From NCBI GenBank assembly GCA_028532855.1, contig JAQQAL010000021.1, forward strand, positions 1 to 64,000: a stretch of DNA of 64,000 nt, written 5' to 3'. Source of the stretch: Candidatus Thalassospirochaeta sargassi (lineage in GTDB: Bacteria > Spirochaetota > Spirochaetia > UBA9216). The position numbers were made by a program, and so were the translations under genes. The notes beneath the pieces are model-generated. The model worked only from the letters and a program-made list of their open reading frames with translations, searched no databases and was not told the DNA's origin. This document shows positions 5,633-23,313 of this stretch, piece after piece. Positions within the stretch are counted from its first letter, which is position 1. Each line of letters starts with the position of its first letter.

Positions 5633-6262
5633 TTATTTACCGATCTTCGCCCGAAGCTTCAATGCCTCATCAACCGGATTTTCAGCTGAACCGACTGCTC
5701 CGCCAACTATCAGTACATCAGGCTCCAATTCAGCATACAGCGGGACTGTAGCCAATGAGATACCACCGGCAACATAGACTTCGGCATTCTTACAATGCCG
5801 TTTCATTACCTTTAAATCATCAAGCGGAGTTCTCCCCTCTCTCTGCTGATCAACTCCGGTGTGTACAGCAATCCCATGCACTCCAACAGCCTCAAGCCGG
5901 GCTATTTTTGATGGAATATCATCCACACATATCATATCAGCAACAATTTCCCTACCGTGCTCATTAGCCACTGAAACACAGGCTTCCACCGTCGCTATGT
6001 CAGTCACAGCCAGAACGGTTATATAATCAGCACCTGCTTCAATTGCAGATAATGTTTCCAGCTCACCTGCATCCATGATTTTAGTATCCGCAAAAATTTT
6101 TTTATCCGGAAAAGTTTTACGAAATTGCCTGACTGCGTTCATTCCTTCCTCGAGAAGAAAGGGTGTTCCAATCTCAATAATATCAATATGTCCTTTTATC
6201 TGCTCGGTCAGCGCCAGGGCATCCTCTAATCTGAAAACGTCTAATGCTAATTGCAGTTTCAT
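5633..6262 (-). CDS. hxlA: 3-hexulose-6-phosphate synthase
   Basis: This 209-residue (beta/alpha)8 enzyme of the OMP decarboxylase superfamily matches the normal length of HPS (about 210). It starts MKLQLALDVFRLEDAL, has VEIGTPFLLEEG-like DIIEIGTPFLLEEGM, and the acid motif ADTKIMDAGE (D-x-K-x-x-D) that binds Mg2+ and the enediolate. HPS joins formaldehyde to ribulose 5-phosphate or splits hexulose 6-phosphate in reverse. It is 9 bases downstream of the hexuloisomerase gene, its standard partner. The related 3-keto-L-gulonate-6-phosphate decarboxylase (UlaD) is the main alternative; the IMDAG form and the neighbouring PHI favour HPS. Confidence 0.85.
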   Translation of the reverse strand: MKLQLALDVFRLEDALALTEQIKGHIDIIEIGTPFLLEEGMNAVRQFRKTFPDKKIFADTKIMDAGELETLSAIEAGADYITVLAVTDIATVEACVSVANEHGREIVADMICVDDIPSKIARLEAVGVHGIAVHTGVDQQREGRTPLDDLKVMKRHCKNAEVYVAGGISLATVPLYAELEPDVLIVGGAVGSAENPVDEALKLRAKIGK

Positions 6263-6271
6263 TATTCCTTC

Positions 6272-6835
6272 CTATTCAAGATTCGCGTGACGCGTAAACA
6301 TTGTATCTGAATCAAATCCTTTCTTCTCCATAATTCTTAAAATTACAGCATCAAAAAAGAGCAGCATGCTCTGCTCAAACAGAGAGCCCATCGGTTGAAT
6401 TGATTTAAAGTCTCCTGCGGATTCAGCCTTAGGTGTCGGCGCTGGAATTTTAATGATAATATCGGCTGCCCGGCCGACGGAGCCTTCAGGGCGAATGGTG
6501 ACCGTCGCAAGTACGGCTCCGATTTTTTTCGCTTTTTCAGACATAGTTAAAAGGCTGCCTGTCTCTCCGGAGCCTGATGAAATTATCAAAAGATCATCCG
6601 ATTCAAGACTGGGGGTAACTGTTTCACCGACAACATAGGCATCAAATCCCATATGCATCAGCCTCATAGCAAATGCCTTTGCGGCAAAACCTGAGCGTCC
6701 GGCACCCGCAACCAGGATTTTCTTAGATTTTATGATCTGGTTAGTTAATGCTTCTCCGCTTTCCGGAGAGATTTTATTCAAAGCTGTTTTCAATTCTTCA
6801 GCAATGAGATCAGCATATTCAGTTGTATTCATCAT
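6272..6835 (-). CDS. hxlB: 6-phospho-3-hexuloisomerase (SIS domain)
   Basis: This 187-residue protein is one SIS sugar-isomerase domain, the standard size for PHI. The N-terminal part has VAGAGRSGFAAKAFAMRLMH and the later LLIISSGSGETGSL, both typical of PHI phosphosugar binding. It interconverts D-arabino-3-hexulose 6-phosphate and fructose 6-phosphate, working with the HPS directly downstream (9-base gap). Upstream, D-lyxose isomerase ends 15 bases before the start. Together HPS and PHI fix or release formaldehyde through the ribulose monophosphate reactions, or supply ribulose 5-phosphate from fructose 6-phosphate. Confidence 0.9.
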   Translation of the reverse strand: MMNTTEYADLIAEELKTALNKISPESGEALTNQIIKSKKILVAGAGRSGFAAKAFAMRLMHMGFDAYVVGETVTPSLESDDLLIISSGSGETGSLLTMSEKAKKIGAVLATVTIRPEGSVGRAADIIIKIPAPTPKAESAGDFKSIQPMGSLFEQSMLLFFDAVILRIMEKKGFDSDTMFTRHANLE

Positions 6836-11671: not shown

Positions 11672-13124
11672 CTAAATTATATAAGATTGATTCTCTACAA
11701 CATTATGGATAGTCTGAAGCGTTTCGGATAGCATTGCAGTCAGATTCTTATAGGCTCCCTCATTTATTGCCTTATAACGCTTATGCTGCTCTTCGTCCCG
11801 GGTGAAGACCTTTTCCTGATGAACCATTTTTTGTACCGCTTCGTTGAAGCCGCCATAGTATCCGGTCCCGACGGCTGCACAAATTGCAGAGCCAAGGCCT
11901 GCTGCCCCGTTAACCCTGTTCCGGAGTGCTGTTACCCCGAACACATCGGCAATAATCTGCATAAAAAGATCGCTGTTAGAGCCGCCTCCACAGACTATAA
12001 ACTGCTCTGGACTGCTTCCCAGGTCTTTATTCATGGCATCAAAATTATTCTTCATCCGCATTGCCAAGGCTTCCATCATTGCACGATAGATGTGACCCCT
12101 TGTATGACGCTGATCAAATCCAATCATAACTCCTTTTTTATGAAGCTTGTCCGCAGGCGCAAGCCAGTCCGGAACTATCAGAAGACCGTCGGATCCGGCC
12201 GGTACAGCAACAGCCTCTTGTTCAAGCAGCTCCTCAACACTGCAGCCGCATAAAACGGCCTTATCGGCGAACTCTTTACCCAGAAGCTCAAGGATCCATG
12301 AAATATGCCACATACCGCCGCGAATCCCGGCGCATTCATAGAGGTACTGATGGGGGACAGATGATAGATTAGTAAAAACATTTTCTGTCTCATCCCTGTA
12401 TTCACTGCCGAACACCATTGCGGTTGTATAGGTACCAAGCGACAATAATCCTATGTTGGGTTCGATAAGACCAGAGCCGAGCGCTTCAACAGCCTTATCA
12501 TTGGCTGTGGCTGCAACGGGCAGGCCTTCCGGCAGGCCGGTCAACTTTGATGCTCCGGCTGTAACCCGGCCTATAATTTCCCCCCGGCAGATGCATTTCA
12601 AACAGTTTTTCCCTGGGAATCGCAAAACTATCGAAGACTCCTGCATCCTCCGACCATTGCCAGGTATTCATATCTACAGGAAACTGGTATTGGTACGAAT
12701 TTGAAATTGTGTCTTTCAGCTCTCCTGTTAGTCGGAATGTAAGGTAGCCTGAGGTAGACCCTGTATAGGCAATGCCCGGTTCATCTTCAAAGGTTTCATA
12801 TGCTCTTACATCCATCCAACTCATGACCGGAGCCGCAAGTGAACCGTCAGCTTTCATAAAAACCCTACAACATCTGATTGAGCACAGCCCGACTCCAATA
12901 ATATCATTTATTTTTCCGTCGAAAAGGCTGAATAATTCGCGCAGAGCAGCCTGCAGGCTGTCCCATAGATCGTCATCCGGATGCTCAACCCAGCCGTTTT
13001 TTCTGGAAATCATGGGCTTAAGAGGCTGACTTGCGCTGCAGACAACCTTTCCTTTGTCGCTGATTATTGAAACCTTCGTGCTCTGGGATCCGCTGTCTAT
13101 GCCTATAAAATATTTTTCACTCAT
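11672..13124 (-). pseudogene. FGGY-family carbohydrate kinase, split by a +1 frameshift in a G6 run
   Basis: Two overlapping frames (track ORFs 12498-13169 and 11672-12646) make one FGGY kinase. The N-terminal frame starts at the ATG at 13124 (MSEKYFIGIDSGSQSTKV, AGGA 7 bases upstream) and runs to FEMHLPG. The other frame resumes at GEIIGRVTAGASKLTG and carries the C-terminal ATPase half (GLLSLGTYTTAMVFG, then FIVCGGGSNSDLFMQI). The switch falls in six consecutive C on the plus strand (12580-12585); five would restore a 483-residue protein of normal length. It could be a sequencing error, a phase-variable tract, or a recent null mutation. The substrate is probably a ketose or polyol, judging from its operon. 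Confidence 0.85.
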
Positions 13125-13146
13125 ATTATTGTCCTGAATCTTGAGA

Positions 13147-13923
13147 TTACCTTGTAAGAAAACCGCCATCTACAGACAGAATATGACCGTTAACAAACTG
13201 TGATGCCTTGCCGGCCAGAAACACCGTGGTTCCCATCAAATCTTGAATTTCGCCCCATCGACCTTCAGGTGTATGGTCAACAATCCAGTTGTAGCGTTTT
13301 TCATCACTCATTGAATCACTTACAAGGCTGGTCTTGAAATAGCCGGGGGCAATCCCGTTAACCTGAACATTATACTGTGCCAGTTCATCACAGTATGCCT
13401 TTGTCAAACCCGCCAGACCGTGCTTTGTTGCTGCATAGGCCGGCGACTGCTGCCCCCCTAAAAAACTGAATAATGAACAGATGTTAATTATTTTCCCGCT
13501 TCTCTGCTCTATAAAATAGGGGGTCACTTCCTCTGACATCTCAAACGCAGCTGTAAGATTGACAGCCACCATAGGGTCCCATTCTTTCCTGCCGAACTCA
13601 CGAATATTTTTCAGGATAGATATTCCTGCACAGTTAACGAGTATGTCTACCGAACCAAGAAACCTGACACAGTGTTCTACAACCTGTTTCGGCATACCCG
13701 GCTCTGTAATATCGGCATTCATATAAACGGCTTTCACACCCTCGGATTCAACAAGGGAATTAAAATCCGGATCATCGGGCATAATACTCGGCATCAAAAT
13801 GTTTGCTCCAGCCTTCGCAAGAGCGAGAGTAAAGGCCTGTCCCAACCCTGTATTGCCTCCGGTGACTATAGCGTTCTTTTCTTTCAGCGAAAAATAATCC
13901 ATAGAAAAATCGGTAATATTCAT
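13147..13923 (-). CDS. Short-chain dehydrogenase/reductase, KduD-like
   Basis: This 258-residue classical SDR has the cofactor motif VTGGNTGLGQAF (residues ~20-31), NCAGI, and the catalytic YAATK with the upstream Ser. Its closest style is 2-deoxy-D-gluconate 3-dehydrogenase / KduD (the GGNTGLG form). It should oxidise a sugar, polyol or sugar acid with NAD(P). It overlaps etfA by 4 bases and ends 22 bases before the kinase start, so it is central to the Etf-linked operon: presumably one oxidation is by the FAD dehydrogenase/Etf pair and one by this enzyme before phosphorylation. The exact substrate is unknown. Confidence 0.88.
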   Translation of the reverse strand: MNITDFSMDYFSLKEKNAIVTGGNTGLGQAFTLALAKAGANILMPSIMPDDPDFNSLVESEGVKAVYMNADITEPGMPKQVVEHCVRFLGSVDILVNCAGISILKNIREFGRKEWDPMVAVNLTAAFEMSEEVTPYFIEQRSGKIINICSLFSFLGGQQSPAYAATKHGLAGLTKAYCDELAQYNVQVNGIAPGYFKTSLVSDSMSDEKRYNWIVDHTPEGRWGEIQDLMGTTVFLAGKASQFVNGHILSVDGGFLTR

Positions 13924-14867
13924 TTATATTCTCCCTTTCTTATCCTTTTAATTATTCTCGGGATAAACTCCCTTGCATCAGCTTCAACGACAATATTTGA
14001 AAGACTGCAGATGGGAGCCTGTCTGTCGGGATTAACAGCGATAATATTTTCTGCGTTTTTGATACCGACAACATGCTGAATTGATCCTGATATCCCCAGA
14101 GCGATATATAACGACGGATTAACAATTTTGCCCGATTGCCCCACCTGAATATGCCGCGGGGCTGCACCCCTGTCGACTACTTTCCGGCTGGCTGAAACCG
14201 ACCCGTTCAAAACCTCGGCAAGCTCATTAAGCTGATCAAAATATCGCGTCACTCCATCGCCACCGGACACCAGAACATTACTTTCCCTGATGTCCTCATC
14301 CTGGGGTTTAGGCTGGCTTGATATATACCTGATTCCCGGTTTCCGGAAAGGCTCCGGATTAAAGTTAATTTCTTCAGTCTTTTTCGTTCGCGGCCCGGCA
14401 TAAGAGAAGATGTTCTGTCGCACGCTCATCATTACCGGAGCGCCGCCCCTGTTCACAATACCGGCAAGCATCCTGCCGCTGAATGCCGGACGGACCATCA
14501 CAATCTCTTCATCGTGATGCCTGATCTCTGTAACATCAGCAACAAGTCCGGTTTGCAGTCGCATTGCAGCTCTGGGCGCTATCATTCTTCCAAAAACAGT
14601 GGCCGGAATAAGAACTGCATCAAATTGAAAATCCCTGTGCAGTTTTTCAATACTGTCTGCAATATATGCAGCATCGAACCCCTCAGCCCTATCCGGACTG
14701 ACACTTATCAATTTATCAAAAACTCCGAAGACGTCTGCTGGCGGTGTTCCGGGAACTATCCCGTACGAAAGGCTTTCTCCCGCACCGTAGATCTGTTCCG
14801 CAGCCTCGAGAAGATCAATGCTGTCCTTCACCGCTTGCGGGTCAATATAAATCAAAACCTTCTTCAT
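13920..14867 (-). CDS. etfA: Electron transfer flavoprotein, alpha subunit
   Basis: This 315-residue protein ends with the EtfA FAD domain: VGQSGKIVNPSLYIALGISG followed by QHVVGIKNAENIIAVN, both near-invariant in the family. With EtfB it accepts electrons from a flavin dehydrogenase; some Etf pairs bifurcate or confurcate with NADH and ferredoxin. The gene overlaps etfB by 4 bases and the SDR by 4 bases, giving a tight coupled chain. The adjacent FAD-binding dehydrogenase is the obvious electron donor. Confidence 0.95.
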   Translation of the reverse strand: MKKVLIYIDPQAVKDSIDLLEAAEQIYGAGESLSYGIVPGTPPADVFGVFDKLISVSPDRAEGFDAAYIADSIEKLHRDFQFDAVLIPATVFGRMIAPRAAMRLQTGLVADVTEIRHHDEEIVMVRPAFSGRMLAGIVNRGGAPVMMSVRQNIFSYAGPRTKKTEEINFNPEPFRKPGIRYISSQPKPQDEDIRESNVLVSGGDGVTRYFDQLNELAEVLNGSVSASRKVVDRGAAPRHIQVGQSGKIVNPSLYIALGISGSIQHVVGIKNAENIIAVNPDRQAPICSLSNIVVEADAREFIPRIIKRIRKGEYK

Positions 14868-15664
14868 GAGCAGACAATCCCCCGCTGCTTAAGGAACTGA
14901 TATACTTCTTCTATTCCCTCATCATCACATTTGAGAAACCGGGTATCCTTGCGGCCGAAACTATCAACCTCAACCTGCGACACCTTTGTCGGAGAGCCGG
15001 CTATCCCTGTTTCTGTATCACAGAAGCGGAGCCTGCTATTTGAGACTATCTCTAGCTGCCCGCTGACATCGCGTTCAAGATCTTCATACTTAATGTAGGG
15101 AAGCTTGATTTTTGTAGAATACTGGAAGCTCAGTATTGCCGGCCGTTCAATCTCAAACTGCAATACGGCATCTTCACTGTCCACCTCTGTCCTCACCCGG
15201 TCAGAAAACAAACCTGCCTGGTTAATCCTTAAAATATTTCCCATCTGTGGAATGTTCAGACATTCCGCAACCTGGGAAGGAACATGGGCGGTTCCGCCGT
15301 CTATTGAGTGGGTACCGCTGAAAATCCAATCAAAAGCCTCCCTCTCAAGATATCTGCTGATAATCCGGCTTGTTACGTAGGTATCACTTCCGACATAAGA
15401 TTTATCCGATATAAGAATTGAACGGTCAACACCCCGTTTAATAAGGTCCTCAAGATGAGGCCTGCAACCCTCCGGCCCCATAGTCAGGGTCTCTACCTGT
15501 ACATCAATATTTTCCTGCTTGAGCTTCAAAGCAACCGACAGAGCTGAACAATCCTCGGGGTTCAGTATCTGATGAACATTCTCCCTCACTAATACATTTC
15601 TTTCATAGTCGTATTTAAAGTTTTCAACATCAGGTACAAGCTTGACGAAACAGATTATCTTCAT
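14864..15664 (-). CDS. etfB: Electron transfer flavoprotein, beta subunit
   Basis: This 266-residue protein has the EtfB N-terminus MKIICFVKLVPDVENFKYD, and the conserved NPEDCSALSVALKLK region plus DWIFSGTHSIDGGTAHVP for AMP or FAD binding. It pairs with EtfA. It starts 8 bases after the FAD dehydrogenase stop. Whether the pair bifurcates cannot be settled by eye; a second FAD in EtfB is the usual marker. Confidence 0.95.
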   Translation of the reverse strand: MKIICFVKLVPDVENFKYDYERNVLVRENVHQILNPEDCSALSVALKLKQENIDVQVETLTMGPEGCRPHLEDLIKRGVDRSILISDKSYVGSDTYVTSRIISRYLEREAFDWIFSGTHSIDGGTAHVPSQVAECLNIPQMGNILRINQAGLFSDRVRTEVDSEDAVLQFEIERPAILSFQYSTKIKLPYIKYEDLERDVSGQLEIVSNSRLRFCDTETGIAGSPTKVSQVEVDSFGRKDTRFLKCDDEGIEEVYQFLKQRGIVCS

Positions 15665-15672
15665 AAGTTCAG

Positions 15673-17145
15673 TTACTTCTGATATTTCGCGCCTTCTTCC
15701 TGGTAATAAATCGTTCCAAAATTCATAATTCCGTTCGGATCAAATGCTTTTTTGAGCTTCTCCAACATATAAAATGCAGTTCCGTGTTCATCTTTTGACC
15801 ATTCATTACGGAATTTTCCGATACCGTGATGGTGACACATTGAACCGCCAAGTTTCAGTGTTTCTTCAACAATTATTTTCTGGAGCGGATGATGATAAAC
15901 CCTCATTTCATCTTCAGGAGCACAATTAATACTGTAGTTGTATACGAAATACATATTCGTTCCGTTTATGTAACTGTGAGACGAATGCCCGCCCAGCATT
16001 GTCAGATCATGAACCCGGTTGTATTCCTTTCTGATTCTTTCGATTGCGTTGTGGTATATCTTCGGGATTGTTTCCCAGTCAGCGGAAATCTCCGTAGTGA
16101 ACCCGTCGTGCGAATCGTTTTCAATCATTCCCTCGAACTCGTCGTCAATATCCTGCTGAGACCAGTTGAGGTTTACAAACCAGTTTTCAATCAGTTCGCT
16201 AGGAACCTCTTCGATTATACCTTCGTTGAACTTATCAACAGCCTCTTCTATGCCCCGGCTGGTTGCCTCAACAATACCCTTGTTTCCCTCGGCCATAAAA
16301 AGCAGAACACATTTACCCTTATAAAAATGGAAAAAATGCTGACGTGCATCCTCTTCCGAATATACCCTTGCAACGGAAGGCCGGTAGCCGTTAACCATCA
16401 CCTCGCGCAGGACCTTGAGACCAGTTTCAATATCCTCTGTAAGATAACCGTAAAATTTATTATTGTCCGGAAAATACCTGTATACCTTCACCGTTACTTC
16501 TGTGATATAGCAGAGCGTCCCTTCATTTCCTATTGCTATATGACGGATATCCGGTCCGCCCGCGCGGCGTGATACATTTTTAATCCGGGAAACATGGCCA
16601 TCAGGAAATACACATTCAAGCCCTGCAACCATATCCTCAATTCCACCGTAAAGCGTAGAAAACTGGCCTATACTCCGGGTAGCAACCAGACCGCCGTATT
16701 TTGCAACCGGCTTTGATTGAGGCGAGTGCCCCGTGGTAAGTCCAACCTTATTCAGCTCATCTTCCAGAGTCTGAAGGGCTACTCCGGCCTGAACGGTTGC
16801 CTGCATATTGTATTCATCAATTTTTATTATTTTATCCAGGTGTAGTGCATCAATAACGATGGTTTGCTCTTTCCAGTTTTCAAGTCCGCCTTCCGTCGCT
16901 GTTTTACCGGATCTTGGAATTACATTTATCTGATTTTCATTGCAGAAAGCCAGAAGCCTGGCAACTTCCTCAGTAGATTTTGGATACACAATGGCCAGAG
17001 GGACAGGAACATCAAGAACCTTTCTTGCCTTTGCGTATTTTTTATACCTGTCAGCAGCCGCATCATAGAGCTCTTCAGGGTCAGTGTTTATCTGATCATC
17101 CGTGAGGATTGTGGAGATGTTTTTCATGAGCTTATCATTTTCCAA
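15673..17145 (-). CDS. FAD-linked dehydrogenase (GlcD/AGPS-like) coupled to Etf
   Basis: This 490-residue flavoenzyme has the PCMH-type FAD domain (VIPRSGKTATEGG, then VATRSIGQFSTLYGGIEDMV) and the C-terminal HHHGIGKFRNEW motif typical of alkyldihydroxyacetonephosphate synthase and related D-2-hydroxyacid dehydrogenases. The start is a TTG at 17145 with AAGGAG 9 bases upstream. It leads the operon with etfB and etfA, the arrangement seen for Etf-linked D-lactate dehydrogenases, so it probably oxidises a hydroxyacid or polyol and passes electrons to Etf. The downstream SDR and sugar kinase argue for a carbohydrate-derived substrate rather than lactate. The real substrate is unknown. Confidence 0.85.
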   Translation of the reverse strand: MENDKLMKNISTILTDDQINTDPEELYDAAADRYKKYAKARKVLDVPVPLAIVYPKSTEEVARLLAFCNENQINVIPRSGKTATEGGLENWKEQTIVIDALHLDKIIKIDEYNMQATVQAGVALQTLEDELNKVGLTTGHSPQSKPVAKYGGLVATRSIGQFSTLYGGIEDMVAGLECVFPDGHVSRIKNVSRRAGGPDIRHIAIGNEGTLCYITEVTVKVYRYFPDNNKFYGYLTEDIETGLKVLREVMVNGYRPSVARVYSEEDARQHFFHFYKGKCVLLFMAEGNKGIVEATSRGIEEAVDKFNEGIIEEVPSELIENWFVNLNWSQQDIDDEFEGMIENDSHDGFTTEISADWETIPKIYHNAIERIRKEYNRVHDLTMLGGHSSHSYINGTNMYFVYNYSINCAPEDEMRVYHHPLQKIIVEETLKLGGSMCHHHGIGKFRNEWSKDEHGTAFYMLEKLKKAFDPNGIMNFGTIYYQEEGAKYQK

Positions 17146-17248: not shown

Positions 17249-17262
17249 TGGAAAATTTTCCA
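17249..17262. promoter_or_regulatory. Perfect palindrome TGGAAAATTTTCCA, probable RpiR-type operator
   Basis: TGGAAAATTTTCCA is a perfect 14-base palindrome in the 175-base divergent region between the Etf-linked operon and the rpiR-type regulator gene, 58 bases before the regulator. A second half-site, TTTTCCA, lies about 35 bases to the left. MurR/RpiR regulators often bind GAAA...TTTC palindromes, so this is the best candidate operator for both divergent units. Confidence 0.6.
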
Positions 17263-17320: not shown

Positions 17321-18034
17321 ATGATAAATATTGATGAAACAAAACTGAATAATCTTGAGCTCAAAGTGCTGAAAACCCTATCCAAATATTCCAAGGATAA
17401 CCAGGCGCCGAAAATTACGGAAGCAGCTGCCCTCTGTGCCTGTTCTGTATCACAGGTTTCTAAATCAATAAAAAAAGCAGGCTTCGACGGATACAAGCAA
17501 TATATGCGTTATCTTTATTATGATGACAACCCGCAAAAAGAAATCCCGGAAGAACTTGTTCGAATAAGACAATTCGTTGAGGAGTTTGATGTTTCTCTGG
17601 CGGACGAATTGGCTAAACTTATCATATCTCATAAAAAGATAATACTGTTCGGCTTCGGCCCATCATTCATTTGTGCTCAATATATAGAATACAAACTAAG
17701 ATTATGCATCAATTCATTTGTCGATGTTCCGCCGGATGAACAATCCCTGCTTAATATGCTTGATGAGGACAGTTTGCTTATTATTCTTTCAACAACCGGA
17801 CGGTACCGCTCCTTCAATGAAATCACAGCAAAATCAAACGGCAGGGGCGCAGATGTGGTAATTATTTCCGAAGAGTTCAACCCCAACCTCATGGAGAACA
17901 ACAGCAGATATATATTTCTTTCCCGACATAATCAGTCAAACCTGCTTGAACCCCATGAGAAAACACGTACAACATTCTTTATCTTCTTTGAAGAGGTTAT
18001 TAAACGAATAATTCTCAATAAAAAAAATATTTAA
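17321..18034 (+). CDS. MurR/RpiR-family transcriptional regulator with SIS domain
   Basis: This 237-residue protein has an N-terminal RpiR helix-turn-helix (about residues 10-75, with VSQVSKSIKKAGFDGYKQY) and a C-terminal SIS domain (ILFGFGPSFICAQYIEYKLR and LLIILSTTGRYRSFNEI) that would sense a phosphosugar. It is divergent from the Etf-linked operon, and its 3' end abuts the ABC-transporter operon, whose last gene ends 7 bases away on the other strand. It is therefore the likely regulator of the catabolic genes and perhaps the transporter. The effector is probably a sugar phosphate made by the operon's kinase. Confidence 0.88.
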   Translation: MINIDETKLNNLELKVLKTLSKYSKDNQAPKITEAAALCACSVSQVSKSIKKAGFDGYKQYMRYLYYDDNPQKEIPEELVRIRQFVEEFDVSLADELAKLIISHKKIILFGFGPSFICAQYIEYKLRLCINSFVDVPPDEQSLLNMLDEDSLLIILSTTGRYRSFNEITAKSNGRGADVVIISEEFNPNLMENNSRYIFLSRHNQSNLLEPHEKTRTTFFIFFEEVIKRIILNKKNI

Positions 18035-18041
18035 CCCCAGC

Positions 18042-20027
18042 TCAATCTGCTGAATACAGATGACAGGCAATACTGTGAATTTCACCGAATCCTACCGGTT
18101 CCGGCGTTACATTCTCACAAATTTCACCAATCTTTTTATGACACCGCCCGGCAAAAGGACAGCCCTTGATCTTTTTTGTAGGATTCGGGGGTGCTCCTTC
18201 GAGTCGTACAGCGCCCTTTGTAAGAGCAGGATCCACATCAGGAACCGCACTTAAAAGCGCTTCGGTATATGGATGATATGGAGGCGAAGTTACCTCGTCC
18301 CTCTTTCCGAACTCGACTATTCGCCCAAGGTACATCACCATTATATAATCAGAAATGTAGTTTACTACATTCAAATCATGGGAAATAAAAATGTAGGAGG
18401 CACCCGAACGCTGCTGAAGATCTGTCAGAAGATTCAGGACTGATGACTGTACTGAAACATCAAGCGCCGAAGTAGGTTCGTCACATACTATCAGTCCAGG
18501 AGAAAGCACAAAAGCCCGTGCGACTGCTACGCGCTGCATCTCTCCACCGCTTAGCTGGGTGGCCTTCCGTTTCAGGTATTCTTTACCAAGATCGACCTGT
18601 TTCAGGATCTCGATAATTCTTTCCCTTCTCTCAGTTTTCGATTTTATTCCGAGCAACCTCTTCATCGGTCTACCGATAATCTGTTCGATGGTAAAAGACG
18701 GATTCAGACTCCGGCCGGGGTTCTGAAAAATCAACTGAATTTCCTTCAGAACCTCAGGCGATCTGCGCTTCCAGGTCATTGAGATATCAGTTCCATCAAA
18801 ATAAATTTTCCCTTTGCTTGGCTTCAACAATCCTGTAACAGTATAACCGAGAGTACTTTTGCCACAGCCCGATTCGCCGACAATACCAAGCACATTGTTC
18901 TTTTTCAAAGAAAAATTCAGCCCGTCAACCGCACGAACTTTTTTCCCCCGACTGTTGAATGTCTTATACAGATTCACAATATTCAGAGCTTCGCCGTCTT
19001 CCGTCTTTTCAATTACATCTACTTTTTTCGGTATCAATGAGTCATCCGCCACATCTTTAGCAAATGCCCTGTCACAGGCTGTAAAATGATCCTCAGCTAT
19101 TTCTCTGAGTCCATATCTGCTTTCGCAGTTTTCCACACGCTTTCCGCAGCGATCAAGGAAGGGACATCCACCTTCATCTATACTCCTTTTTCGCACATAG
19201 CCCGGAATAGTATTCAGACGATATTCTTCCTTCACAATTCCGCTTCTGGGAATACAGTTTATCAATGCCCTTGTGTAGGGGTGCTCAGGTTTATGAAACA
19301 TCGATTTCTTATCTCCGTATTCAACAACCTCTCCCCGGTACATTACCGCAATATTATCGCTAACTTTGTTAACTACACCCATATCATGTGAAATATAAAT
19401 CATTGACATCTGGTATCGTTTTTTAAGATCGTTAATAAGATCAAGTATTACTGCTTCGGTAGTTACGTCCAGTGCTGTTGTAGGCTCATCAAGAATCATC
19501 AAGTCCGGCCTGCATAAAAGTGCCATGGCAATACAAATTCTCTGCTGCATACCGCCGCTTATCTGATGAGGAAATCTTTTTACCAGCCCTTCCGCATCGC
19601 CGAGATAGAGATCCTTCAAAATTGCAACACTCTCTTTTCTTGCATCCTTTTTTGAAAGGTTCCGATGAAAAATCGTTACCTCATCAAGCTGTTTTCCAAT
19701 TGTAAGAGAGGGATTCAACGATGAGTATGGATTCTGATAAACCATTGCGATTTTATTTCCGCGCAAACCAACCATTTCGCGTTCGCTTTTCTCAAGAATA
19801 TTCTCACCCTGATATAGAATGTTACCGTCTGTACTGCCGTTTGAGGCAAGATAATTCATTATAGAAAAGGCAAGGGTGCTTTTGCCTGATCCGGACTCAC
19901 CAATTATACCAAGAGACTGTTTTTCTTTCAGTTTGAAGGTAACATCCCGCAATGCAGAGACAGTACCATAATAGGTTTGGTAATTAACGCTGAGACCTTG
20001 TACATCTAGTATTATATTATGATTCAT
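18042..20027 (-). CDS. Dipeptide/oligosaccharide ABC transporter, fused double ATPase (DppD-DppF type)
   Basis: This 661-residue protein contains two full ABC ATPase domains. The first has Walker A GESGSGKST, signature SGGMQQR and Walker B LMILDEPTTALD (about residues 1-270). The second has GESGCGKST, SGGEMQR and LIVCDEPTSALD (about 345-600). Each is followed by the oligopeptide-transport C-terminal extension with a CxxxxxRC-type motif (CPFLDRCGKRVENC and CPFAGRCHKKIGEIC) usual for DppD/DppF. Most systems encode the two separately; here they are fused. It overlaps the DppC-type permease by 11 bases and powers that importer. Confidence 0.95.
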   Translation of the reverse strand: MNHNIILDVQGLSVNYQTYYGTVSALRDVTFKLKEKQSLGIIGESGSGKSTLAFSIMNYLASNGSTDGNILYQGENILEKSEREMVGLRGNKIAMVYQNPYSSLNPSLTIGKQLDEVTIFHRNLSKKDARKESVAILKDLYLGDAEGLVKRFPHQISGGMQQRICIAMALLCRPDLMILDEPTTALDVTTEAVILDLINDLKKRYQMSMIYISHDMGVVNKVSDNIAVMYRGEVVEYGDKKSMFHKPEHPYTRALINCIPRSGIVKEEYRLNTIPGYVRKRSIDEGGCPFLDRCGKRVENCESRYGLREIAEDHFTACDRAFAKDVADDSLIPKKVDVIEKTEDGEALNIVNLYKTFNSRGKKVRAVDGLNFSLKKNNVLGIVGESGCGKSTLGYTVTGLLKPSKGKIYFDGTDISMTWKRRSPEVLKEIQLIFQNPGRSLNPSFTIEQIIGRPMKRLLGIKSKTERRERIIEILKQVDLGKEYLKRKATQLSGGEMQRVAVARAFVLSPGLIVCDEPTSALDVSVQSSVLNLLTDLQQRSGASYIFISHDLNVVNYISDYIMVMYLGRIVEFGKRDEVTSPPYHPYTEALLSAVPDVDPALTKGAVRLEGAPPNPTKKIKGCPFAGRCHKKIGEICENVTPEPVGFGEIHSIACHLYSAD

Positions 20028-20850
20028 GTATAAGCACCTTTGAGAAGAAGTCGGAAATCAGGGATATTGCAATTACGAGAGAAGCAATAGCCAATGCAGG
20101 ATATAATACTGACCATGGGGCAACAGATATTATCTGCTTATTTTCAATAACCATCATTCCCCAGTCAGGGGTAGGCGGCTGTAATCCGACACCTAAAAAT
20201 CCAAGCGACGCAACCATCATGATGGAATACGCAAAACGGGCGGTAGCTTCTACTATAATCGGCCCAAGCGTATTAGGAAGGATCTGTCTGAACATTATAG
20301 AAAAATTGTTTTCACCCATTATTCGGGCAGCATCAACATATTCCCGGCCTTTATGAGTCAACAGAGTTCCACGGGCTACTCTGGCTGTCGCCGGAATATA
20401 GGCAATGGAGATCATAAGGGTAAGACTCATTATCGTGGAATCACCTAATACCCCCAAAATAACCATGGCAAGTACCAGAGCCGGAATCGACATCAATACA
20501 TCCAGAATTCTTAAAAAGATTTTGTCTACCAAGCCGCCGAAATAGCCGGCAGAAAATCCGATAATTATTCCTGCCGCTGTAGAGAAAAAAGAGGTAAATA
20601 GAGCAACGGTCAGTATGGATCGACTTCCTGTTACAATTCTCGCAAGGAGATCTCTTCCCAATGCATCAGTACCCAGAAGATGGCCGCCGGTTCCCGGTGG
20701 AGCTATCTGATTTTGCGTATCCATTTCCGTATAAGTAAAATTCATTAGCGAAGGACCTGCTAAAGCGAGGAAGATCCAAAGAAACAGAACCGCAAAACCG
20801 GCTATCGCTAGCGGATTTGATTTCAGATCATGCAGTATGCGCCTCATCAA
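20017..20850 (-). CDS. ABC transporter permease, DppC type
   Basis: This 277-residue permease has an N-terminal membrane helix, then a short periplasmic part containing HLLGTDALGRDLLARIVTG (the conserved DppC 'GTDxxGRDxxSR' motif), and the EAA coupling loop around ARIMGENNFSIMFRQILPN. It has about six membrane helices. It pairs with the DppB-type permease, whose stop overlaps its start by 4 bases. The complex imports peptides or, in many spirochaetes and Thermotogae, oligosaccharides. Confidence 0.93.
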   Translation of the reverse strand: MMRRILHDLKSNPLAIAGFAVLFLWIFLALAGPSLMNFTYTEMDTQNQIAPPGTGGHLLGTDALGRDLLARIVTGSRSILTVALFTSFFSTAAGIIIGFSAGYFGGLVDKIFLRILDVLMSIPALVLAMVILGVLGDSTIMSLTLMISIAYIPATARVARGTLLTHKGREYVDAARIMGENNFSIMFRQILPNTLGPIIVEATARFAYSIMMVASLGFLGVGLQPPTPDWGMMVIENKQIISVAPWSVLYPALAIASLVIAISLISDFFSKVLIHES

Positions 20851-21812
20851 TCCACCCCCTTCGCCAGTCTGACCCTGGGATTCAACACTCCGTACAGGGT
20901 ATCGGTTATCAGTGTGGAAACAACAAAGATAAAGGTAATGAACAATACACAGGCCTCAATAAGCGGGACATCCCTAGTTTTTATCGCACTCATTGTCAGA
21001 GATCCGAGTCCGGGAAAACCGAAGAGGGTTTCAACAACTATCAGCCCGCCAAAAAGCCATCCCATGTTCATACCGATGATAGTAATCGTAGGCAGGAGAG
21101 CATTTTTCAATGCATGTCTGAAAATTACATATCTTCGCGGCAGCCCCTTAAGAGTGGCGGCTCTGACATAATCAGAATCCATTACCTGGATCATTGACGA
21201 TCTCTGCATTCTCGAAACATAACCGAACATGACAATTGTAATTGAAAGTGCAGGAAGAATGAGAATATTCAGATTACCCCATAATGATTCACCAATCGGA
21301 ATAACACTGGTTATTGGAAGAATTTTAAGCTTTACCGAAAACAGCGTTATAAACAAAACTCCTGAAACAAATTCCGGCAAAGCCATTGTAGCCAGACCGA
21401 AAAAAGAGATAATCTGATCAGAGAGTTTTCCCGCCCTTACCCCGGCAACCACCCCGAAAAATATCGAAAGCGGAACATAAAAAAGCAGCGCGGTAATAGC
21501 CAGAACAAGCGAATGACCAACCTTTCTCCAAAGAATGGAATTAATTGCAACTCCACGCATATAGAGACTCTCTCCAAGATCGCCTTGAAGCAGTCCGGAA
21601 AACCACCGCCAGTAGCGAACCAGGAAAGGATCATTCAAGCCCATACTCTCACGAAGAGATGCGAGCCCTTCCGGTGTGGAATTCTGTCCCAGAACCATCT
21701 GGGCGACATCACCGGGCATCAGTTCTACAAGGAAAAAGATTAAAAATGACATTACGGCCAGGGTCGCAACCATGGACCCCAGCCGTACAATAAATCTACG
21801 AATAAAAAACAT
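20847..21812 (-). CDS. ABC transporter permease, DppB type
   Basis: I place the start at the ATG at 21812 (MFFIRRFIVRLGSMV), 321 residues, because it follows the binding-protein stop by one base and has CGGAG about 5 bases upstream; the track's longer version starts inside the upstream gene. It has the DppB N-terminal helix, the VELMPGDVAQMVLG motif (PGDP-like), and the coupling loop YVRAATLKGLPRRYVIFRHAL. It has about six membrane helices and forms the import channel with the DppC-type partner. Confidence 0.93.
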   Translation of the reverse strand: MFFIRRFIVRLGSMVATLAVMSFLIFFLVELMPGDVAQMVLGQNSTPEGLASLRESMGLNDPFLVRYWRWFSGLLQGDLGESLYMRGVAINSILWRKVGHSLVLAITALLFYVPLSIFFGVVAGVRAGKLSDQIISFFGLATMALPEFVSGVLFITLFSVKLKILPITSVIPIGESLWGNLNILILPALSITIVMFGYVSRMQRSSMIQVMDSDYVRAATLKGLPRRYVIFRHALKNALLPTITIIGMNMGWLFGGLIVVETLFGFPGLGSLTMSAIKTRDVPLIEACVLFITFIFVVSTLITDTLYGVLNPRVRLAKGVD

Positions 21813-21813
21813 G

Positions 21814-23313
21814 CTACTCCGAAATATAGGTTTCTTTATACCTGGTAACAAAAGTCATCGGCTGAGAATAGTCTTTGACTTCCTTCCTTAAAGCAACATA
21901 ATACGGAACCTGTATATTGAGGATAGTTCCGCGATCATAGAAAACCTTTGCCAGTTCATCGTAATATCCCTGACGTACCGTATCATCAACCTCTGCAAGG
22001 ATTTTGCCGATTAGCTCATCAACCCTGGGCTCATTTATATGAGATTCATTCCAAGGCCCTTCGGAATGGTAGGCAAGCATCAGCAGCATGGAAGGATCAG
22101 GTCGACCGCCCCATCCTGTAAGCAGCATCGGAGCATTCATCCAGTACTGTGAAAGATAAACATCTCTGGAATAACCCTTAAGCTGAACATCAAAACCTGC
22201 AGGCGCCGCAAGCTCCTTTATTGTCTGAGTAAGTTCTTTTCCGAAAGGATGGTCAGATCCATAGTATAATTCTACTGACAAACCGTTCGGATAACCGGCT
22301 TCTGCAAGAAGCTCTTTTGCTTTTTCAATATCCTGTCCCCTGAAAGGAATATCATAATACTGAGACTGATTATTCAAAATAGGCGATTCGTTATAAAAGA
22401 TATCTACACCAAGTTCACCCTGACATGCTGCGGCAAGAACTTCCGGATCCATACAGTACTTCATAGCCTGTCGAACACGGTTGTCGTTGAAGGGCTCCCT
22501 GTCTGCCGCAAGTGCTACAAAACGATGCTCCTGATAAGGAGAAATAACTTCAAACCCTGCAGCTTCCAAACGGTCTTTGTGGATAACTGTTGCGAAAGGC
22601 GCAATATCTACCTTACCGGCCTCGAGCATATTCATACTTGCATCAATATCAGGTACAAAATATATTCTGAGTTCATCAGCCTTGGGCAGCCCTGCTACCC
22701 AGTATTCTTCATTTTTTACGAGAAGAGCAGATTCTTTCGGTCGCAGTTCAGCCATTTTAAATGCGCCCGTACCCATGGGCTGTGATTCGCCGAGTGAAGC
22801 ATAATCATAATCAGAAGAAAGCATCATCATGTTATATGCCAGGAAAAGATAAATAAATGTAGGACGCACTTCTTTCAAAGTAAGCACTACTGTATAGTCA
22901 TCAGGTGTTTCTATACTTTCAACAATCTGGAAGTCTGCTTTTTGAAGATGCCCCAGATCAGGATCCTGTGTTCTTTCAATTGTGAACTTCACATCCTCAG
23001 ATGTAAAATCAGATCCGTCATGAAACTTAACTCCTTCCTGTAGTTTTAACGTCCAAACCTTACCATCGGTAGTACTCCAGTCTTTTGCCAGACATGGAAT
23101 AACTTCATTGGTTTCAGGATCCAGTTCTACAAGATATTCGTATATAGTGCAGTTCATGGAAAAGGTCTGCCCATCCCATACCCCCGGGGTAATCAGGTTC
23201 GGAACCTGATCTGCAACTCTTACAATGTTCTTAGGTGTTTCCTGCTGTCCAGTCGCAGAAACAGAAAAGATTAATAGCATAGCCATAAGAATTAGAAAAA
23301 GTGATTTTTTCAT
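21814..23313 (-). CDS. ABC transporter substrate-binding protein, family 5 (DppA/OppA)
   Basis: This 499-residue protein has a signal peptide (MKKSLFLILMAMLLIFSVSATG), without a lipobox cysteine, so it is secreted rather than a classical lipoprotein. The mature part shows the family-5 pattern: TWTL-like KVWTLKLQEGVKFHDGSDFT and DNRVRQAMKYCMDPEVL. It would bind peptide or oligosaccharide in the periplasm and deliver it to the DppBC-type channel. It is the first gene of the transporter operon; the 240 bases upstream, shared with a divergent MarR gene, hold the promoters. The substrate is not evident; the adjoining sugar operon suggests a glycoside. Confidence 0.93.
   Translation of the reverse strand: MKKSLFLILMAMLLIFSVSATGQQETPKNIVRVADQVPNLITPGVWDGQTFSMNCTIYEYLVELDPETNEVIPCLAKDWSTTDGKVWTLKLQEGVKFHDGSDFTSEDVKFTIERTQDPDLGHLQKADFQIVESIETPDDYTVVLTLKEVRPTFIYLFLAYNMMMLSSDYDYASLGESQPMGTGAFKMAELRPKESALLVKNEEYWVAGLPKADELRIYFVPDIDASMNMLEAGKVDIAPFATVIHKDRLEAAGFEVISPYQEHRFVALAADREPFNDNRVRQAMKYCMDPEVLAAACQGELGVDIFYNESPILNNQSQYYDIPFRGQDIEKAKELLAEAGYPNGLSVELYYGSDHPFGKELTQTIKELAAPAGFDVQLKGYSRDVYLSQYWMNAPMLLTGWGGRPDPSMLLMLAYHSEGPWNESHINEPRVDELIGKILAEVDDTVRQGYYDELAKVFYDRGTILNIQVPYYVALRKEVKDYSQPMTFVTRYKETYISE

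Follow-up and report, generated by a model that had tools for sequence, protein, structure and literature searches.

An apparently uncharacterised, electron transfer flavoprotein-linked gene set in Candidatus Thalassospirochaeta sargassi and its counterparts in the Escherichia coli ygc cluster

The operon, its regulator and a candidate operator

The window considered here, a stretch of 64,000 nucleotides from Candidatus Thalassospirochaeta sargassi (contig JAQQAL010000021.1, positions 1 to 64,000), carries on its minus strand an operon encoding a flavin adenine dinucleotide (FAD)-dependent dehydrogenase of the YgcU type, resembling alkylglycerone-phosphate synthase (AGPS) (15673-17145), the two subunits of an electron transfer flavoprotein (ETF), EtfB (14864-15664) and EtfA (13920-14867; 315 amino acids, without a ferredoxin domain), a short-chain dehydrogenase/reductase (SDR), the ortholog of E. 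coli YgcW (13147-13923), and an FGGY-family kinase (11672-13169). A gene for an RpiR-type regulator, a probable repressor of the operon, lies divergently on the plus strand (17321-18034), with an ATP-binding cassette (ABC) importer on its far side. The positions and names that the first-pass annotation gave to all of these genes were borne out by open reading frame (ORF) and domain searches. Its description of the SDR as KduD-like is correct at the superfamily level and goes too far beyond it, the best NCBIfam score being 299.9 bits against a cut-off of 369.

The operon looks intact apart from its kinase gene, which is not a single ORF and carries a frameshift that the first-pass annotation missed. 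One surplus G within a GGGGGG run (CCCCCC on the plus strand) near 12582-12587, a position good to one or two bases, splits it into two overlapping ORFs in different frames: an N-terminal part (12498-13169), homologous only as far as this run, and a C-terminal part (11672-12646). FGGY_N and FGGY_C domains are both present, in two frames here and in a single chain in the orthologs, which read through the run. Alignment with the ortholog of Candidatus Marispirochaeta associata (L031) places the two halves in two frames, with the break at the G6 run. An in-frame deletion, suspected from the early stop of the FGGY_N match, was ruled out, as the orthologs share the short N-terminal domain. Given the frameshift, and given that no second ortholog of the kinase was found in the genome, either the pathway is broken in this organism or the assembly is in error at the G run. 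Decay of the operon in this genome, with the kinase as a true pseudogene, is possible but less likely than not; it would account for a one-base lesion that the orthologs lack, and it does not conflict with the reading preferred below for the whole family. However, both halves are well conserved (74% and 68% identical to L031), with no other lesion, and a sequencing error is possible at a homopolymer site in a draft assembly of 53 contigs.

The RpiR protein has a SIS domain (Pfam, 1.6e-9, above its cut-off) and a weak HTH_6 match (5.4e-4, 20.3 bits, against a curated cut-off of 28.3). The perfect 14-base palindrome previously noticed between this gene and the dehydrogenase gene is indeed present, as TGGAAAATTTTCCA at 17249-17262, and its 13-base core has no other exact match in the 3.8 Mb genome, in which sites with one mismatch also occur. 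The motif GGAAAnnTTTCC was found in 57 of 67 RpiR-dehydrogenase intergenic regions from related loci, and 50 rounds of dinucleotide shuffling of these regions did not yield it once, a strong count, but not one of independent observations, these regions being related to each other to varying degrees. The palindrome is thus a conserved operator candidate. Control of the ABC importer from the same operator was considered and ruled out, no match being present upstream of the importer at up to two mismatches. At three related loci (L006, L046 and L056), a glycerol-3-phosphate (G3P)-responsive antiterminator stands in place of RpiR, directly upstream of the dehydrogenase gene; a protein of this kind is also encoded upstream of the SDR in Streptomyces, near the operon in Enterococcus and, as YgcP, in E. 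coli. RpiR and the GlpP-type antiterminator therefore replace each other among relatives.

Conservation across phyla and the E. coli ygc cluster

A scan of GTDB genomes with the dehydrogenase yielded 80 loci, with 73-85% identity, from Firmicutes, Spirochaetes, Desulfotignum, Chloroflexi and Alphaproteobacteria. When the ORFs around it were clustered, a single recurrent unit emerged, in which a divergent RpiR gene is followed by dehydrogenase, an optional major facilitator superfamily (MFS) transporter, EtfB, EtfA, SDR and kinase genes. All of the 70 loci that extend as far as the kinase have the SDR (70/70); EtfB is encoded at 67 of them, EtfA at 63 and a divergent RpiR ortholog beside the dehydrogenase at 61. 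Among the loci as far as L077, every one that lacks the SDR or kinase breaks off no more than about 4 kb from the dehydrogenase gene. The co-conservation of kinase and SDR with the dehydrogenase, on which the first-pass annotation had made its proposed link depend, is thus confirmed, and comparison of these sequences shows that the five-gene set is a conserved unit. Pairwise identities of its members are correlated across loci, most strongly for EtfA and EtfB (r 0.93), followed by the dehydrogenase with EtfB (0.87), with RpiR (0.85) and with the kinase (0.69). Median identity is 76% for the dehydrogenase, 67% for the SDR and 44-49% for the kinase, ETF and regulator.

The dehydrogenase is patchily distributed within the organism's own phylum, 8 of 296 sampled genomes having a match (E up to 1e-100). 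Plasmid records, searched with the protein, yielded further copies, from Ilyobacter, Enterococcus, Priestia, Vibrio and Streptomyces; in the last three of these, only SDR, dehydrogenase and kinase are left of the unit, without a linked ETF. Genes flanking the Sphaerochaeta and Desulfotignum copies give no consistent clue to the substrate.

The same plasmid search brought up a 56% match in E. coli records, leading to the K-12 locus b2766-b2776 (ygcN, ygcO, ygcP, ygcQ, ygcR, ygcS, ygcU, ygcW, yqcE and ygcE), the products of which are all annotated as 'putative'. The window proteins are 56% identical to YgcU, 58% to YgcW and, for the two kinase halves, 51% (N-terminal) and 41% (C-terminal) to YgcE. 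YgcQ matches the window EtfA weakly (about 25%), and YgcR has no match in the window; the ETF-type pair of E. coli occupies the same position as EtfAB, but the two are distant relatives. YqcE matches several of the MFS clusters of the relatives, and YgcP is 53% identical to the GlpP-type antiterminator of L056. On these alignments and the shared adjacency of YgcU, YgcW and YgcE, the operon is orthologous to the ygcU/ygcW/ygcE set of E. coli K-12, together with ygcRQ, an identity that the first-pass annotation had missed. The two differ in that the YgcP antiterminator and YgcN/YgcO, which we take to be FixCX-like, occupy in E. coli the place of the RpiR and palindrome of the window operon. No YgcN-like match was obtained in the genome of the spirochaete, in a search that had no positive control. 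The E. coli ygcW-yqcE intergenic region (L117:14275-14592) does not contain the RpiR palindrome; it holds TGTGATCGTAATCACA, which resembles a CRP site, as expected for catabolic genes. A ygcU gene is present in 5,061 of 5,426 complete E. coli genomes (about 93%, at >=80% coverage). No description of this gene combination was found in the literature, which was searched mostly without the E. coli ygc gene names.

An AGPS-type dehydrogenase and its electron route

Profiles of the dehydrogenase family compared with PDB entries score 203 bits for AGPS and 88 bits for the lactate dehydrogenase LctD. In a fold search with an AlphaFold model of the enzyme (mean pLDDT 79, pTM 0.80), the top match is AGPS (TM about 0.80, E 1e-29), followed by D-lactate dehydrogenases (TM about 0.76, E about 1e-26). 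Fold alone separates these two groups little; they are separated by their active-site residues. R260, Y399 and H438-H440 are invariant in 22 aligned homologs and align with Arg419, Tyr578 and His615-617 of AGPS, Arg419 and Tyr578 being the residues changed in solved AGPS mutants, according to the titles of these structures. The enzyme is, by sequence, modelled fold and active-site residues, of the AGPS type rather than the lactate dehydrogenase type. A best alignment with true lactate dehydrogenases, which would have counted against the link proposed in the first-pass annotation, was thus not obtained. It differs from AGPS, to which it is about 23% identical, in its shorter N-terminus and in its linkage to EtfAB and catabolic genes.

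Complexes of lactate dehydrogenase with EtfAB are known (PMC9232219), and the operon could be read as encoding a confurcating complex of this kind, for D-lactate or another 2-hydroxyacid, with the presence of the kinase and SDR being coincidental. The LctBCD complex of Acetobacterium woodii does share with the operon a VAO/GlcD-type FAD dehydrogenase (FAD_binding_4 plus FAD-oxidase_C) encoded next to EtfAB, a glycine at the β-FAD site and an arginine in EtfA. However, the dehydrogenase has a CHHHGIGK motif instead of the Glu422-His423 pair of the LctD active site (PMC9232219), its bit score for LctD is less than half that for AGPS, its GlcD equivalog score is 152 against a cut-off of 568, and the SDR and kinase co-occur with it throughout. 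LctC, moreover, has an N-terminal ferredoxin domain that the EtfA of the operon lacks, and LctBCD is without the additional SDR, kinase and RpiR. This explanation is extremely improbable.

The retention of the fold and catalytic residues of AGPS raises the alternative of a biosynthetic enzyme, in an operon for ether-lipid (alkyl-dihydroxyacetone phosphate, alkyl-DHAP) synthesis. AGPS chemistry is redox-neutral overall, yet EtfAB is linked to the dehydrogenase in nearly all of the loci from anaerobes; the divergent RpiR gene and the importers point to catabolism, and no acyltransferase is present among the annotated recurrent clusters. A biosynthetic role is, thus, very unlikely. The same genome encodes a second AGPS-like enzyme (587 amino acids, HHHGVG motif; G000:C40, L115:2095-11006) beside an FGGY kinase, in a set that also includes a GlpA-like FAD oxidoreductase, a Pyr_redox_2 protein, an iron-type alcohol dehydrogenase and a divergent FadR-type regulator. 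This cluster was considered as a copy of the operon and rejected, as it is a different set, linked to GlpA and the iron-type alcohol dehydrogenase.

In the PDB, the nearest matches to the EtfA and EtfB profiles are bifurcating ETFs. Markers of bifurcation include a small glycine in place of a bulky residue near the β-FAD (Gly123 in A. fermentans; PMC12630350), the DGDTAQVGP and RxFxG segments and an EtfA arginine hydrogen-bonded to N5 of the β-FAD (PMC9232219). The glycine is kept in 76 of 77 EtfB sequences and the arginine in 71 of 72 EtfA sequences (Arg126 in the window, where the α-FAD motif reads QVGQSGK), the single exception being a Pseudovibrio (L110), in which the EtfB motif is lost too. 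The longer segments are conserved in part: the window has DGGTAHVPS (EtfB residues 122-130) at the place of DGDTAQVGP, and KSYVG; the family has mostly DG[DG]T.HVP, with DG and T kept almost everywhere, and RxFxG has often lost its R. At the corresponding place E. coli YgcR has SEGQNGQTP, in an alignment read by eye, and thus lacks DGxT, making the E. coli ETF look non-bifurcating. The bifurcation residues that the first-pass annotation had singled out are therefore present as regards the glycine and arginine and incomplete as regards the full motifs, which the E. coli counterpart does not have. Because the motif is kept in part in one group and lost in YgcR, β-FAD binding is plausible in the ETFs of the anaerobes and unlikely in that of E. 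coli, and electron bifurcation by the EtfAB of the operon is possible. The genome encodes RnfC, and no match to an ETF:quinone oxidoreductase (ETF-QO) domain was found in it.

Transporters, substrate and a proposed pathway

Transporters of the betaine class are recurrent partners of the operon. A BCCT-family transporter is encoded in the same-strand run at 21 of the 70 loci, and a betaine-type (OpuC/ProX-type) ABC ATPase at 13 of 70 in the run and 23 of 70 nearby. The operon-linked binding protein of Enterococcus has as its best PDB match OpuCC, which binds choline and carnitine (E 3e-95), that of L044 is closest to ProX, the BCCT of L040 matches trimethylamine (TMA), dimethylsulfoniopropionate (DMSP) and betaine transporters, and in Vibrio a BCCT gene lies beside the core genes. 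Since BCCT and OpuC/ProX-type importers recur in this way, a quaternary-ammonium (betaine- or choline-like) substrate is probable. Some loci add SurE, a phosphatase. Together, the transporters, the antiterminator and SurE suggest that the substrate is of the betaine class and that an intermediate resembling glycerol or a polyol is phosphorylated. In two spirochaete operons under the G3P antiterminator (L046 and L056), a SurE phosphatase, an OsmF-type binding protein, a FAD_binding_2 (fumarate-reductase-like) protein and betaine-type ABC genes form one run.

The importer in the window is of the peptide/nickel type (SBP_bac_5; minus strand, 18042-23313) and is a possible uptake system; it consists of an ATPase (18042-20027), two permeases (20017-20850 and 20847-21851) and a binding protein (21814-23313), and its arrangement is the same at two other spirochaete loci (L038 and L105). 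Elsewhere in the window, adjoining genes for 3-hexulose-6-phosphate synthase and 6-phospho-3-hexuloisomerase (5633-6835) both score above their NCBIfam cut-offs and are followed by ORFs that we take to be lyxose-isomerase-like and uroporphyrinogen-decarboxylase-like.

The first-pass annotation proposed a plain C4-C6 polyol or sugar as the substrate, which is not supported in that form, the transporters linked to the operon elsewhere being of betaine, choline and carnitine types. A version of it deserves consideration, in which the compound oxidised by the SDR and flavoenzyme is an aldonic acid or a C4-C6 polyol, the kinase phosphorylates the ketose and the betaine-type transporters are incidental. 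FGGY kinases and RpiR/SIS regulators generally belong to sugar metabolism, the SDR is nearest to KduD and gluconate 5-dehydrogenases, the MFS partners score nearest to galactonate and phosphoglycerate carriers, kduD/kduI genes lie near the Ilyobacter copy, and 26 of the 70 loci have none of the five recognised transporter clusters in the run. The SDR nevertheless falls below the KduD cut-off, and three unrelated importer families of the betaine/choline class recur in several phyla, often within the same-strand run, making such a pathway rather doubtful.

On balance, the operon is probably an inducible, repressor-controlled catabolic one for a polyol- or glycerol-containing, probably quaternary-ammonium compound, with electrons passing to its own EtfAB. 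In the scheme proposed, which goes by inference beyond what is observed (which genes are present, the families of their enzymes and the conservation of the palindrome), RpiR bound to GGAAAATTTTCC would keep the operon repressed until its SIS domain takes up a phosphorylated intermediate formed by the FGGY kinase; the kinase product would thus be the likely inducer, with the G3P-type antiterminator taking the same role in other lineages. The substrate would be a small compound containing a polyol or glycerol moiety, probably betaine- or choline-like. The NAD(P)-dependent SDR and the flavoenzyme would carry out two oxidations around the phosphorylation step, and the flavoenzyme would pass its electrons to EtfAB. 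The ETF, in an organism with Rnf and no detected ETF-QO, would hand them to NAD+/ferredoxin, possibly by confurcation.

Several observations weigh against this interpretation. The kinase frame is broken in the window, the β-FAD and NAD motifs of the ETF are kept in part, and copies in Bacillus, Vibrio and Streptomyces have no linked ETF. The window's own importer is not of the betaine class, MFS transporters are present at 30 of 70 loci, and more than a third of loci have no recognised transporter in the run, as stated above. In 20 of 21 operon-linked BCCTs (e.g. L040:10864-12429), the Trp of the aligned TMA and DMSP transporters (FYWAWW) is replaced by Asn (FYW.NW), so the ligand may differ from simple betaines. 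The transporter neighbourhood is, furthermore, guilt by association, consisting of associations rather than tests.

A more specific version of the catabolic scheme would run ether-lipid chemistry backwards. The kinase would phosphorylate a quaternary-amine glycerol ether, such as a betaine-lipid head group, oxidation at C2 by the SDR would give a ketone resembling alkyl-DHAP, and oxidative cleavage of the ether would fall to the AGPS-like flavoenzyme, with the electrons passing to EtfAB. In ether-lipid synthesis, alkyl-DHAP is reduced by an SDR, a parallel that serves as a lead only, and the version is quite unlikely; if true, nearly all E. coli would possess a catabolic route by ether cleavage of a kind not described before.

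The gene set thus represents a real, conserved and apparently uncharacterised pathway that is orthologous to a cluster of E. coli y-genes and differs from it in its variant regulator and ETF. The pathway is present in about 93% of complete E. coli genomes, across phyla and also on plasmids, and annotation gives it no function. Comparison across phyla adds clues beyond those available from the E. coli locus: the sequence of a candidate operator, the AGPS type of the active site, a substrate that is probably of the betaine class and an inducer that is likely to be phosphorylated.

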